Shown in pieces: positions 41,471-45,427 of a stretch of DNA of 46,920 bases; position 1 is the first letter of the stretch, and each line of letters begins with the position of its first letter. The notes under the pieces were generated by a model. That model did no database searches. It saw nothing but the letters and a program-made list of their open reading frames with translations, and was not told the origin of the DNA. Source of the DNA: Bacillota bacterium (GTDB lineage: Bacteria > Bacillota > Clostridia > Peptostreptococcales > Anaerovoracaceae); NCBI GenBank assembly GCA_017440275.1, contig JAFSHN010000069.1, positions 1 to 46,920 of the forward strand, in the 5' to 3' direction. A program made the position numbers and the translations under genes.

Positions 41471-42226
41471 TTAATATATACCGATTACTTTTAGCAAAAG
41501 TAAAAATAAAACAAATAAAATGCTGTATTTGGCAAGGCTTGAGCCGTTTTTCATCGCCAATCCCGCACCAATGTATCCACCTACCATATTCGAGGCAGCT
41601 GCTGCAATCCCAAGAGGGAGCATAACCTGTCCGTTTATCAAAAATATAGCTAATGCAGTCACGTTGGTAGTCAGATTAATTACCTTTGCCTGGGCATTGG
41701 CAGTTTTGATATCCAGTTTTGCAAAAACGGTAAAGGCTATTATCAAAAATGTTCCCGTTCCGGGTCCATAAAATCCGTCATATATCCCTACTATAAAAGC
41801 AGATATCATTGCTGTCAAATATGTGCGGCTGTCAAGATGAACCCTGTCACTGCCTTCATCATTAAAAAGTTTTTTGTTCAAAACCAAAAATGCAGAAACA
41901 GGGAGTACAATAAACAGTACATAAGTCATTACCTTTTCCGGCAAAATCAAAGAGATATTTGCTCCCGTTCCTGATCCGATTATTGCTGCAATCACTGCAG
42001 GCACAGCTAATTTAAGGTTAACAAGTCCTGCTTTTGCAAATCTCCACGTAGCTAAAGCAGTTCCGAATGTGGAGGACATCTTATTAGTTGCAATACAAGC
42101 ATGCGGCGGCAATCCCGCAATCATATATGCAGGCAGAGAAATTAAACCACCTCCGCCTCCTATGGCATCAATTAAGCCCGCCAGGAAAACCAGCGGGCAT
42201 ACAATTAAATAAGTCATTAATTCCAT
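41471..42226 (-). CDS. TSUP-family (TauE/SafE) membrane transporter
   Basis: 251 residues with about seven to eight hydrophobic segments, matching the sulfite exporter TauE/SafE family (DUF81). Typical motifs are VFLAGLIDAIGGGGGLISLP near the N-terminus and GIYDGFYGPGTGTFLIIAF in the middle, the two repeats of the family. Its substrate may be a sulfur oxyanion or organic acid; nothing here decides. Its ATG shares one base with the stop of the cohesin gene (TAATG), implying coupled translation. It lies 12 bp before ridA. Confidence 0.9.
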   Translation of the reverse strand: MELMTYLIVCPLVFLAGLIDAIGGGGGLISLPAYMIAGLPPHACIATNKMSSTFGTALATWRFAKAGLVNLKLAVPAVIAAIIGSGTGANISLILPEKVMTYVLFIVLPVSAFLVLNKKLFNDEGSDRVHLDSRTYLTAMISAFIVGIYDGFYGPGTGTFLIIAFTVFAKLDIKTANAQAKVINLTTNVTALAIFLINGQVMLPLGIAAAASNMVGGYIGAGLAMKNGSSLAKYSILFVLFLLLLKVIGIY

Positions 42227-43431
42227 TATTCTAAATCACGTTTTCTTGATTTCATAATTTTAAACTGAAGTAATAATACAGCTACAAACAACAGTAACAA
42301 TGTGCCACCCAACGCAATGAATAACATTTTTTCTGTTGCATCCGTTTTATTATCACCAGATGGTGAATCGGTTCCTTTCAGAATCATTTCTTCGTATTCA
42401 ATAATTTCTTTGGCTGAAAGTGATGTCTTTTGTTCAAAAGCATCGCTTTCTTCGTTGTAAAAGAACCAATTATCATCGCCTGTCGCCTTATCTTCAAGAA
42501 GAGCTACAGTATATTTTAATTCCGCATCTTTGAAAACAGGAATTTCGTACTCACCGAAATCAGCTACAGTCATGGTAAAACCTTGCGGAATATCCTTACT
42601 GTCATAATTTTCGCATATAAGATATGTTTTGTCTCCAACCTTCACTTCAAACTGGTCAGGTCTCTTGTTTTCTTCCTTATCTCCGCCGCCCTGAGAATTG
42701 TTTCCTCCGTCGGAAGAAGATTTAGCAGCACGTACTATTGTGATAGTGTATGTCTTTGTAGCTCCGTTTTCAGCAGTAACTGTAACCTTTCTTACATTAT
42801 TGCCTACTGCAAGGCTTGATGAGCCGCTGATTTTATAAGTAGCTTTGGAATCAGCGGTCTTTACACTTAACGTACATGAAGTAACACTGTTTGCTACATT
42901 AACTTTGTAAGATGTAGTGTTTGCTGAAAATGCAGGAGACAAAGTTCCTGCAGATACCTTCAATGAAGCCAGGTTGGCATTGCTTGATGCAGCGGTTGAC
43001 GGATCTTTGATGGTAATTGAAGAACTCTTTGATGCTGCACTGAGTTCTTCCCCGTCCATATTATATGCTTCTACAGTATCAACTCTGACGCTGGTACTGC
43101 CGGCCTTCAAAGCCTTAAATTTTACTGTACATGACAGACTGCTCTCGTTTGCGCCTACCATACTTACAGTTATCTTGCCGTTTCCTCCTCCGGATGTTGT
43201 TGAGCAAGACTGGAACTGAAGATAGGACTTGTCATAATTTATGTCAGCAGCAACACTTCCATATGTTGCACCGCTATATTTTACAGTCACAGTAATCGTA
43301 TTGCCTTTGTTAACTGTACCCCCGCTTACACTAACCGCAGCTGATGCTGCAAAAGCAGTGCTGACAGAGATAACCATCATCGCAATAACGATCAAAAGCG
43401 TTAGTATCGTTTTCTTATTCGTATTTTTCAT
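42226..43431 (-). CDS. membrane-anchored surface protein with cohesin and cadherin-like domains
   Basis: 401 residues. A signal peptide (about 1-29, ending STAFAA) is followed by a cohesin-like domain (about 32-142): GNTITVTVKYSG, VAADINYDKSYLQF and a late CTVKFKALKAGSTSV strand, as in type I/III-like cohesins. Next is a cadherin-like beta-sandwich domain (about 152-234, ending AENGATKTYTITIVRA), a Gly/Ser/Asn linker, an unrecognised domain (about 258-350), and a C-terminal membrane segment (368-391) with a KSRKRDLE basic tail. It is thus displayed outside the cell and anchored by its C-terminus. The upstream neighbour ends in a dockerin, the cohesin-binding partner. The ATG at 43431 is preferred to a TTG two codons earlier. 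No function beyond binding is inferred. Confidence 0.72.
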   Translation of the reverse strand: MKNTNKKTILTLLIVIAMMVISVSTAFAASAAVSVSGGTVNKGNTITVTVKYSGATYGSVAADINYDKSYLQFQSCSTTSGGGNGKITVSMVGANESSLSCTVKFKALKAGSTSVRVDTVEAYNMDGEELSAASKSSSITIKDPSTAASSNANLASLKVSAGTLSPAFSANTTSYKVNVANSVTSCTLSVKTADSKATYKISGSSSLAVGNNVRKVTVTAENGATKTYTITIVRAAKSSSDGGNNSQGGGDKEENKRPDQFEVKVGDKTYLICENYDSKDIPQGFTMTVADFGEYEIPVFKDAELKYTVALLEDKATGDDNWFFYNEESDAFEQKTSLSAKEIIEYEEMILKGTDSPSGDNKTDATEKMLFIALGGTLLLLFVAVLLLQFKIMKSRKRDLE

Positions 43432-43444
43432 TGTCAATTACCCT

Positions 43445-45427
43445 TTATTCTATAACAGCAATTCCTACAATGTGTTTTTGTACATGAAGAAGATCCAAAG
43501 AATTAACCTTTCCGTTTCCATCTATATCAGAGCTGACAAAATTAGCATCTGTTAATGTTGACAATCTGACAATATGTTTCTGAATATTCAAAAGATCTAG
43601 TGAGTTGCACTTTCCGTCTCCGCTGTTATCTCCTCTTACGAGAACAGTTTTAGTCTTCACAGCTTTATTATTGCTGTCATAAACAACTACATTCATACCT
43701 GTTCCCACAGAGCCTTCTGTTACTTCAGTCCCGTCAGCTCTGCACACTTTAAATGTGTAACCTTCGGAAACAGTTAAGTTGGACTTAAAGTCATTTACAG
43801 AAGTCTTGAGTTTTACACCTGAAATGTATTCATCCACATCATATACATCACTTACCAATTCACCCTCAGGAATAGATTCTTTAGCAACAGTAATATAATA
43901 TGTTCTCGTTGCACCGCTTTCTGCAGTAACTGTCACAGGAATTCTTGTAATGTCACCTGTCAGCGGAATATCATCTAAATCGGAAATTTTTGCTTTAGAA
44001 TGATAAGTATCTGCTTTAATGTCAATATGCGTAGCTGCACCTGAAACAATTATTTCATATTCATAAGTATAGCAATCAAATCCAGGTGTAATTTCGTATC
44101 CTGCAACAGATAATGACTTGAGATAGTTGTCATTGCTGCCTGAAGACGGTTTCTTGCAAGGGTCATTAGGCATATTGTTATATACAGGAATATAGAAAGT
44201 TAATGGCGAATCCATGATAGTCTCATATCCGTCTCTTAACTTTGAGCCTTCGGTGTAAGCAGCACTGACATTTGTCATATACTGGTGTGTCGCTACTTTT
44301 GAAGCCCCGTTCATAACATTGAACTTTTTCAGATATTGAGTATCCTGTTTATTCTTTATATATTCAGCCGCATAGAAATTTGCACCACCTAGAATTGATT
44401 TAACTCTTGTATTCCAAGGTCTGTCATAACTTCCCTTATCAGATGCATACATCAATCCGTAAGTAACAGCATCAATACCGCCACTTTTATATGCTCTTAC
44501 ATTGAAGAAGTTATAAATACCTTCATAGCCTTTTACTGTGCCCGAAATGCTGGCTCCCTGACCATTTGTACCCTGCTCCGTAAGAATCATAGACGCAAGA
44601 ACATAAGGGCTGGATCCTGATTTGATTCCGGCGCTCATAAGTAAATCAACATAAGTCGGATAAGTTTCACTCTTTTCAGGAAAATCTTTTGCCAGGAATG
44701 TATTGGCAACAAGTTCCTGAAGACCTTTCTTTGTCTGTGTATCACCGTCATATGAGTGAGCAACAAACTGGAATACTGAACTTTCGGAAAGAGAGTTTCT
44801 AGGATCCATATAGTACTCAATTATACTTCTTGAAGCAGAAACCCATCCGCCGCTGTCGAAGATTTCATATGTACCTGTAGCAGGATCGTAGGCACCGTAC
44901 TCTACAGACTTATGTGAGTTATTAGAACTGTTGAGTACAAGGTTTCGGCCAACAATGCTCTGTTTGTCAATTACTGTCTGCCAGTCAAGGTTAGTCTTCT
45001 GAACTTTAAAAACCCACTCCGGATGAGCTGCATGCAGATTTCTTAAATAAGGTTTGTACGATTCCGGGAAACCTTGATCAGTCAAATATTTTTCGAAATC
45101 AGTATCAGTAGTATACTCAGGAGTCTCTGTAACTATTACGTATTTGTAGTAGACATAGCCATAAGTACCATCCACATAAATCTTATACCAGGTTTCACCG
45201 TTAGAATCTTTTGTAGTTTCCACTATATCAAAAACTGTTCCGTTTGGAAGCGCAGTTATCAGAGAATATGAAGTCCCCGGGCCGCTTCTGACATTGAGAC
45301 CTATATTAAGATTAACTTTACCTGTAGTTGCAGCCATAGCATCTTCGCTGAACAATACAACAGAAAAAAGCAATAAAACAATTAATATTGCAACCACTAT
45401 TAAATTGTGCTTTTTTGTAACGTACAT
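43445..45427 (-). CDS. secreted N-acetylglucosaminidase with SH3 and dockerin domains
   Basis: 660 residues. A signal peptide or anchor lies at about 1-33. An SH3-type wall-binding domain follows (about 37-100, LNVRSGPGTSYSLITALPNG). The LytD-like glucosaminidase domain is at about 190-385, with candidate catalytic Glu E284 in VLASMILTEQGTNG and YEGIYNFFNV downstream; it should cleave the glycan of peptidoglycan. A cadherin-like beta-sandwich domain (about 428-515) precedes a dockerin at 599-660. That dockerin has two near-identical calcium loops, DNSGDGKCNSLD and DIDGNGKVNSLD, each followed by LL-x2-QKHIV. AGAGG precedes the ATG. The next gene encodes a cohesin protein, so the enzyme may be held at the cell surface by it. 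Confidence 0.8.
   Translation of the reverse strand: MYVTKKHNLIVVAILIVLLLFSVVLFSEDAMAATTGKVNLNIGLNVRSGPGTSYSLITALPNGTVFDIVETTKDSNGETWYKIYVDGTYGYVYYKYVIVTETPEYTTDTDFEKYLTDQGFPESYKPYLRNLHAAHPEWVFKVQKTNLDWQTVIDKQSIVGRNLVLNSSNNSHKSVEYGAYDPATGTYEIFDSGGWVSASRSIIEYYMDPRNSLSESSVFQFVAHSYDGDTQTKKGLQELVANTFLAKDFPEKSETYPTYVDLLMSAGIKSGSSPYVLASMILTEQGTNGQGASISGTVKGYEGIYNFFNVRAYKSGGIDAVTYGLMYASDKGSYDRPWNTRVKSILGGANFYAAEYIKNKQDTQYLKKFNVMNGASKVATHQYMTNVSAAYTEGSKLRDGYETIMDSPLTFYIPVYNNMPNDPCKKPSSGSNDNYLKSLSVAGYEITPGFDCYTYEYEIIVSGAATHIDIKADTYHSKAKISDLDDIPLTGDITRIPVTVTAESGATRTYYITVAKESIPEGELVSDVYDVDEYISGVKLKTSVNDFKSNLTVSEGYTFKVCRADGTEVTEGSVGTGMNVVVYDSNNKAVKTKTVLVRGDNSGDGKCNSLDLLNIQKHIVRLSTLTDANFVSSDIDGNGKVNSLDLLHVQKHIVGIAVIE

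Follow-up and report, generated by a model that had tools for sequence, protein, structure and literature searches.

We analysed a 46,920-nucleotide (nt) window of DNA (contig JAFSHN010000069.1, positions 1 to 46,920, assembly GCA_017440275.1) from a bacterium of the family Anaerovoracaceae that has gut-dwelling relatives; its genome is 75% complete. Two open reading frames (ORFs) of the window lie 7 nt apart on the minus strand, which carries every feature described below. The first, at 43445..45427, encodes a 660-residue putative wall hydrolase. The second, at 42226..43437, encodes a membrane-anchored protein of 403 residues as counted from TTG, an extent that rests on the ORF and its start context; ATG at 43431 is the more likely start than TTG at 43437. 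The first-pass annotation had placed both ORFs at the same coordinates, and read them as a glucosaminidase tethered to the membrane by the docking of its dockerin into the cohesin domain of its neighbor, a pairing from which other bacteria assemble large machines for digesting cellulose.

The hydrolase consists of a signal peptide, an SH3_3 domain, a SagB-like glucosaminidase region, a cadherin-like domain, an unnamed beta region and a dockerin. Sequence reading and a hydropathy scan place the signal peptide at residues 1-32 (45332..45427), with A-M-A ahead of the likely cut, and the protein is presumably exported. The SH3_3 domain (residues 43-97; 45137..45301) matches PF08239 with an expectation value (E) of 5.9e-14. 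No Pfam family matches the catalytic region (residues 110-427; 44147..45100) at E 0.01 or better. The region scored 36.5 bits against the NCBIfam model for the SagB glucosaminidase, far under the cut-off of 425, and it matches solved autolysin E in the PDB at E 1.2e-6. By these matches, the domain is a distant relative of SagB / autolysin E type glucosaminidases, and the assignment proposed at first pass is borne out to that degree. Residue E284, the putative catalytic glutamate, is invariant across 36 aligned dockerin-bearing hydrolases, the window protein included. A cadherin-like domain had been assigned to both proteins; that of the anchor protein (residues 156-236; 42730..42972) passes the PF12733 cut-off of 24.2 with 47.1 bits, whereas that of the hydrolase (residues 436-515; 43883..44122) falls just short of it with 23.0.

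The dockerin occupies the C-terminus of the hydrolase (residues 598-660; 43448..43636). It is of type I by its match to PF00404 over residues 599-653 (38.3 bits, cut-off 22.9; E 1.5e-9), and in the PDB it matches the dockerin chains 1ohz_B and 2ccl_B. The two calcium loops translate as they had been described, the first being DNSGDGKCNSLD (D600-D611; 43595..43630) and the second DIDGNGKVNSLD (D634-D645; 43493..43528). Among the 36 aligned dockerin-bearing relatives, D600, D604, D611, D634 and D645 are invariant. A model of an orthologue from the same genus (genome G004) places the dockerin helices at 17-27, 35-41 and 51-62.

The anchor protein is predicted to begin with a signal peptide and to end in a C-terminal membrane anchor, as claimed at first pass. 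The hydropathy scan puts the transmembrane helix at residues 369-391 or thereabouts (42265..42333), followed by a short cytoplasmic tail. The protein folded poorly from its single sequence (mean predicted local distance difference test score, pLDDT, 41.7), with a helix at residues 367-402 that reached pLDDT 72-89 over residues 371-400. Alignments define a conserved unnamed domain ahead of the membrane helix (residues about 258-350; 42388..42666), over which there is no Pfam match. This juxtamembrane domain carries a P-x-GF ... W-x-FY pattern and is partly common to the anchors of glucosaminidases and of GH25 enzymes.

The cohesin-like domain lies at residues 31-146 (43000..43347). The window protein itself has no match to the cohesin family PF00963; apart from the cadherin-like domain, the one Pfam hit that it has up to E 1 is immunoglobulin (Ig)-like and no better than chance (E 0.2). 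Several orthologous anchors do pass the PF00963 cut-off of 24.1 bits, namely those of G001 (32.1), G156 (27.3), G249 (24.5) and G003 (24.2), the last two only with neighboring stretches of the frame added. Those of G190 (22.8 bits) and G243 (19.5 bits) stay under it, and 32 of 70 adjacent partners reach E 0.1 or better. When a profile of 14 such domains was compared with the PDB, the top three entries were 1g1k, 2vn5 (scaffolding protein) and 5g5d (cohesin region) at E 7e-4 to 2e-3, and antibody V domains came next at E 0.004. With a 33-row profile the same three entries held ranks 2 to 4, behind 7urp. In the alignment-based G004 model, the cohesin-like domain has about ten strands, with pLDDT mostly above 90; solved cohesins have a nine-stranded jelly-roll fold. 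The cohesin assignment of the first-pass annotation thus has no PF00963 match behind it in the window protein and draws some support from its family, through the orthologues over the cut-off and the solved cohesins at or near the top of the profile searches.

We compared the two dockerin repeats at positions 10, 11, 17 and 18, which are named as recognition positions in PMC4081043 (this and the other papers given by PMC number are cited from excerpts). Our numbering assumes that position 1 is the first aspartate of the loop. The window dockerin has NSLD at these positions in both repeats. In 29 dockerins with an adjacent partner, the repeats of one protein agree at recognition positions at a rate of 0.85, against 0.30 when second repeats are exchanged among proteins, a shuffle that ignores kinship; at exposed control positions the values are 0.43 and 0.30. 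In 13 dockerins without an adjacent partner, two of which (L186 and L188) end too soon downstream for a partner to be judged, the values are 0.40 and 0.18 for recognition positions and 0.40 and 0.32 for controls. From the set, L170 and L174 were dropped because the second repeat could not be parsed, and L043, L044, L045, L046 and L265 were added by hand. Of 461 positions where the two repeats share a residue, 235 also share the codon (pooled usage predicts 176), so a recent copying event between the repeats does not account for their agreement. The agreement at recognition positions suggests that both faces of the dockerin are under selection, and the two-fold symmetry proposed earlier is present as a symmetry of sequence. 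In genome G098 (93% complete), which has no match to our cohesin-like domain profile (A5) anywhere, the dockerin reads DEED in repeat 1 and NALD in repeat 2, where its sister L088 has NSAD and NSLD. Decay of the first repeat where no partner is detectable would be in the expected direction, in this one case.

The pair is adjacent in all five other genomes of the genus that we covered. In total the six genomes contain 11 dockerin genes, each with an anchored-protein gene of its own no more than 177 nt downstream (for four of these partners the C-terminal hydrophobic segment was taken from the alignment). The dockerin proteins comprise six glucosaminidases, three GH25 lysozymes, one BspA-type leucine-rich repeat (LRR) protein and one protein of 1592 amino acids. 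Three of the 11 partners pass the PF00963 cut-off (G001, G003:C115 and G004:C42), and eight match A5, which was built with those eight included; nine are found by one profile or the other. When named genomes were searched with the anchor alone there were no matches, and the hydrolase profile did give matches.

Gene numbers follow the same one-to-one arrangement. In the window's own genome we found a single dockerin protein and a single cohesin-like match. Among 19 further genomes with the pair, ten have exactly one PF00404 match and the other nine have 0 to 8, the zero for G295 being that of the genome search, although its hydrolase L174 matched in another search. Of 12 paired genomes with a single dockerin, 11 have exactly one A5 match and G288 has two. 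The earlier proposal of one scaffold for one enzyme therefore agrees with both the window's genome and its relatives. Seven genomes of the same family, among 61, have a dockerin and no PF00963 match (G000, G002, G005, G008, G024, G025 and G027, the last counted through its absence from the PF00963 match list); four of the seven have a profile-detected cohesin-like neighbor.

It is also conceivable that the true scaffold for this dockerin is the product of a gene outside this locus, or of a different species altogether. Such an arrangement has been proposed for Ruminococcus albus, which excerpts of PMC4081043 describe as nearly without cohesins. Two R. albus genomes hold 60 and 62 PF00404 matches, ten Ruminococcus-like hydrolases have a dockerin and no adjacent cohesin, and a remote scaffold could be missed in a genome as incomplete as that of the window. 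However, in 11 of the 12 single-dockerin paired genomes the sole A5 match is the adjacent protein, and we regard a remote scaffold as very improbable for this pair.

Other dockerin proteins of these genomes show the same layout with different enzymes. GH25 lysozymes with a C-terminal dockerin, each followed by its own anchored partner, occur at L043 1865-4384 (G003), L044 7157-9627 (G002) and L045 9431-11859 (G005); in two of the three genomes, the gene upstream is one that we take to be aldo/keto-reductase-like. In G005 nearly the same dockerin, reading KATDYMKIKNHIM in each of its repeats, occurs in the BspA-type LRR protein (L046 157-4016) and in the GH25 enzyme. The anchors of the two are closely related to each other, and both cohesin searches missed their N-terminal domain. 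The 1592-residue dockerin protein (L265 1647-9002, G004) is followed after 177 nt by an LPXTG-type protein with a PF00963 match and a Big_2 domain. In another family of the order, a SpoIID-type enzyme with SH3 and dockerin domains (L040 7263-11702, G042) precedes two cohesin-like proteins with hydrophobic C-terminal stretches.

We think it likely that the two window genes encode a peptidoglycan glucosaminidase and a dedicated membrane partner, with the dockerin docked in the partner's cohesin-like domain. The exported hydrolase would be held to the wall through its SH3 domain and would cut glycan strands, while its C-terminal dockerin would plug into the partner through a bond that is expected to depend on calcium and may, as the first-pass annotation proposed, be reversible. 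The cadherin-like and juxtamembrane domains of the partner would set the height of the cohesin-like domain above the membrane. The enzyme would then stay, and make its cuts, close to the face of the wall that is turned to the membrane, much as SpdC positions SagB in Staphylococcus aureus. Since both repeats keep the same recognition residues, two binding orientations are possible; the enzyme might bind in either, or one dockerin may bridge two anchors. The pair is best read as a membrane-tethered hydrolase complex like SagB-SpdC, in which the dockerin-cohesin bond would be one of two alternative means of joining the enzyme to its partner.

Several results weigh against docking, beginning with the detection of the cohesin-like domain itself. 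In two dockerin partners of G005, which share the juxtamembrane domain, neither PF00963 nor A5 detects a cohesin domain. A5 also missed the PF00963-positive partner G004:C42, so the A5 gene counts are lower bounds. In a complex prediction on the same-genus G004 pair, linked as dockerin, spacer and cohesin (46-row alignment), both domains were well formed (mean pLDDT 88.9), but the predicted template modelling score (pTM) was 0.57, with no confident interface, and therefore the relative placement of the dockerin and the cohesin-like domain is not predicted. Covariation of dockerin and cohesin in partial Mantel tests was alike at recognition (0.35) and control (0.32) positions, which makes co-evolution by this measure uninformative.

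The lack of a confident interface would suit a cohesin-like domain that is a plain Ig-like stalk, with a dockerin that self-folds or binds another target and an adjacency that reflects no more than a shared wall function. The lack of a PF00963 match in the window protein and the antibody V domains close behind the cohesins would fit as well. However, some orthologues do pass PF00963, solved cohesins come first or nearly first in the profile searches, gene number is one-to-one, and the dockerin repeat has decayed where the partner is gone (in one case). We therefore consider the stalk quite improbable, though less so than a remote scaffold.

The remaining difficulty for docking comes from hydrolase loci in other genomes. 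Because they were gathered by similarity to the window proteins, these loci are an uneven sample. We could use 121 of 134 distinct loci; the other 13 were truncated at the 3' end or had less than 700 nt of sequence after the gene. A partner was called at a profile score above 12 bits. Dockerin and partner occur together at 25 loci, a dockerin only at 11, a partner only at 45 and neither at 40. Eight of the 45 partner-only rows score just 18 to 28 bits (L164, L181, L187, L197, L200, L203, L206 and L211), and L209 and L214 were counted as partnerless though the next protein has a signal-like start and hydrophobic segments. The association between dockerin and partner over the 121 loci was not significant (Fisher p 0.11), nor was it on independent pairs (median p 0.5), so the idea that dockerin presence tracks an adjacent partner across all hydrolases lacks statistical support. 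The Fisher test gave p 2e-5 only with ten Ruminococcus-like rows left out, and ten of the 11 dockerin-only rows are one Ruminococcus-like clade. In Ruminococcus bicirculans 80/3 (L172 6659-8431), the sole PF00404 match of the genome is the hydrolase, and no cohesin-like gene adjoins it. Cultivated bacteria with the anchor gene include Pseudoflavonifractor sp. An44 and Diplocloster modestus ASD4241 (L161 and L163).

Partners at loci without a dockerin are no less cohesin-like than the others, contrary to an idea that we had considered; PF00963 similarity was found in 23 of these 45 and in 9 of the 25 that accompany a dockerin. A cadherin-like domain is present in all 25 dockerin-paired partners and in 23 of the 45 others, a count that ignores kinship. 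The cohesin-like domains from loci without a dockerin conserve the residues GRV ... SGG ... L ... P, a pattern missing from the dockerin-paired ones (14 versus 15 rows). The two groups are mostly separate clades. On the tree we count at least seven changes of dockerin state and at least 15 of partner state, in which gain and loss are not distinguishable. We also searched 30 genomes selected from those with a partner and a dockerin-less hydrolase (the sequence of two, G082 and G128, stops inside the partner or shortly past it), and 24 of them have no PF00404 match. Since the partner occurs without a dockerin at 45 of 121 loci and in genomes without any PF00404 match, the partnership is not only a cohesin-dockerin device, and the membrane partner, cohesin-like domain included, probably has a dockerin-free role.

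These loci bear most directly on the idea that the partner binds the hydrolase by another surface (catalytic, SH3 or cadherin-like) as the original mode, with the dockerin a later auxiliary clamp or dispensable. The many partners that are kept without a dockerin would be expected, and the GRV ... SGG ... L ... P pattern looks as though another face had been selected. However, that pattern may be mere descent, because the groups fall mostly in different clades, and paired dockerins keep the recognition residues in both repeats, which an idle clamp would not need. We judge such a binding mode unlikely, while giving it more weight than the Ig-like stalk. A somewhat more plausible account of how docking arose, which we offer tentatively and with more doubt than belief, is that a widespread housekeeping wall-hydrolase complex of the Clostridia, made of the glucosaminidase and the membrane partner with its cohesin-like domain, predates the dockerin. 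The dockerin would then have been grafted on to the hydrolase, perhaps several times, and captured by the cohesin-like domain of the partner, giving one-to-one pairs with dual binding that belong to no multi-enzyme complex.

Among known systems, the docked pair resembles SagB-SpdC, the peptidoglycan release complex of S. aureus (PMC10581084), in that a glucosaminidase of the SagB kind would be held by a dedicated membrane partner. Excerpts of that paper describe SagB as membrane-associated and SpdC as a membrane protein homologous to the CAAX proteases of eukaryotes. Our partner protein, in contrast, combines a single C-terminal helix with a cohesin-like domain, and its enzyme has a dockerin. 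Because these domains differ and the SagB cut-off was missed, we do not file the pair under SagB-SpdC. Nor do we call it a cellulosome, which has a multi-cohesin scaffoldin and many dockerin enzymes, since its genome, at its 75% completeness, yields one dockerin protein and one cohesin-like match. Non-cellulosomal dockerins by which single enzymes reach the cell surface of Clostridium thermocellum, and a cohesin-dockerin pair from Clostridium perfringens, likewise have one dockerin enzyme per cohesin and no multi-enzyme scaffold (PMC5429695, excerpts). Those cases are reported as single-binding, whereas here both repeats keep their recognition residues and the substrate would be peptidoglycan. 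Wall hydrolases with dockerins also appear in excerpts of PMC6403190, which mention the 'lyticome' idea and a lysozyme activity in the cellulosome of Ruminococcus champanellensis; those enzymes are described as docking on a scaffoldin, unlike ours, where a dedicated membrane partner adjoins the one dockerin protein found. Like our anchor protein, proteins of Lachnoclostridium sp. MSJ-17 have one cohesin and a C-terminal transmembrane helix, but the MSJ-17 scaffoldins could accommodate as many as 39 dockerin proteins where we found one (PMC11557425, excerpts).

Excerpts of PMC5429695 explain dual binding by crowding in multi-enzyme cellulosomes, the non-cellulosomal cases being single-binding. 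Here symmetric dockerins persist in the single-enzyme pairs of several lineages, so two proteins suffice as a minimal system in which to test this explanation. An older complex with a grafted dockerin, if true, would break the crowding-relief explanation of dual binding and would make these pairs a surviving link from ordinary surface complexes to cohesin-dockerin machines. We found no description of such a pair in the open-access literature among the matches listed, which does not establish novelty in print.

In the window the pair is flanked upstream by a gene for a thymidine kinase and downstream by one of the TauE family, the start of which shares one base with the stop of the anchor gene. 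Promoter-like sites (14, against 17.2 in shuffles) and terminator-like sites (5 against 3.7) were in no clear excess. In one genus of the family, the partners at L107 2868-4838 and L115 4064-5971 have a long, charged, alanine-rich tail past the membrane helix.

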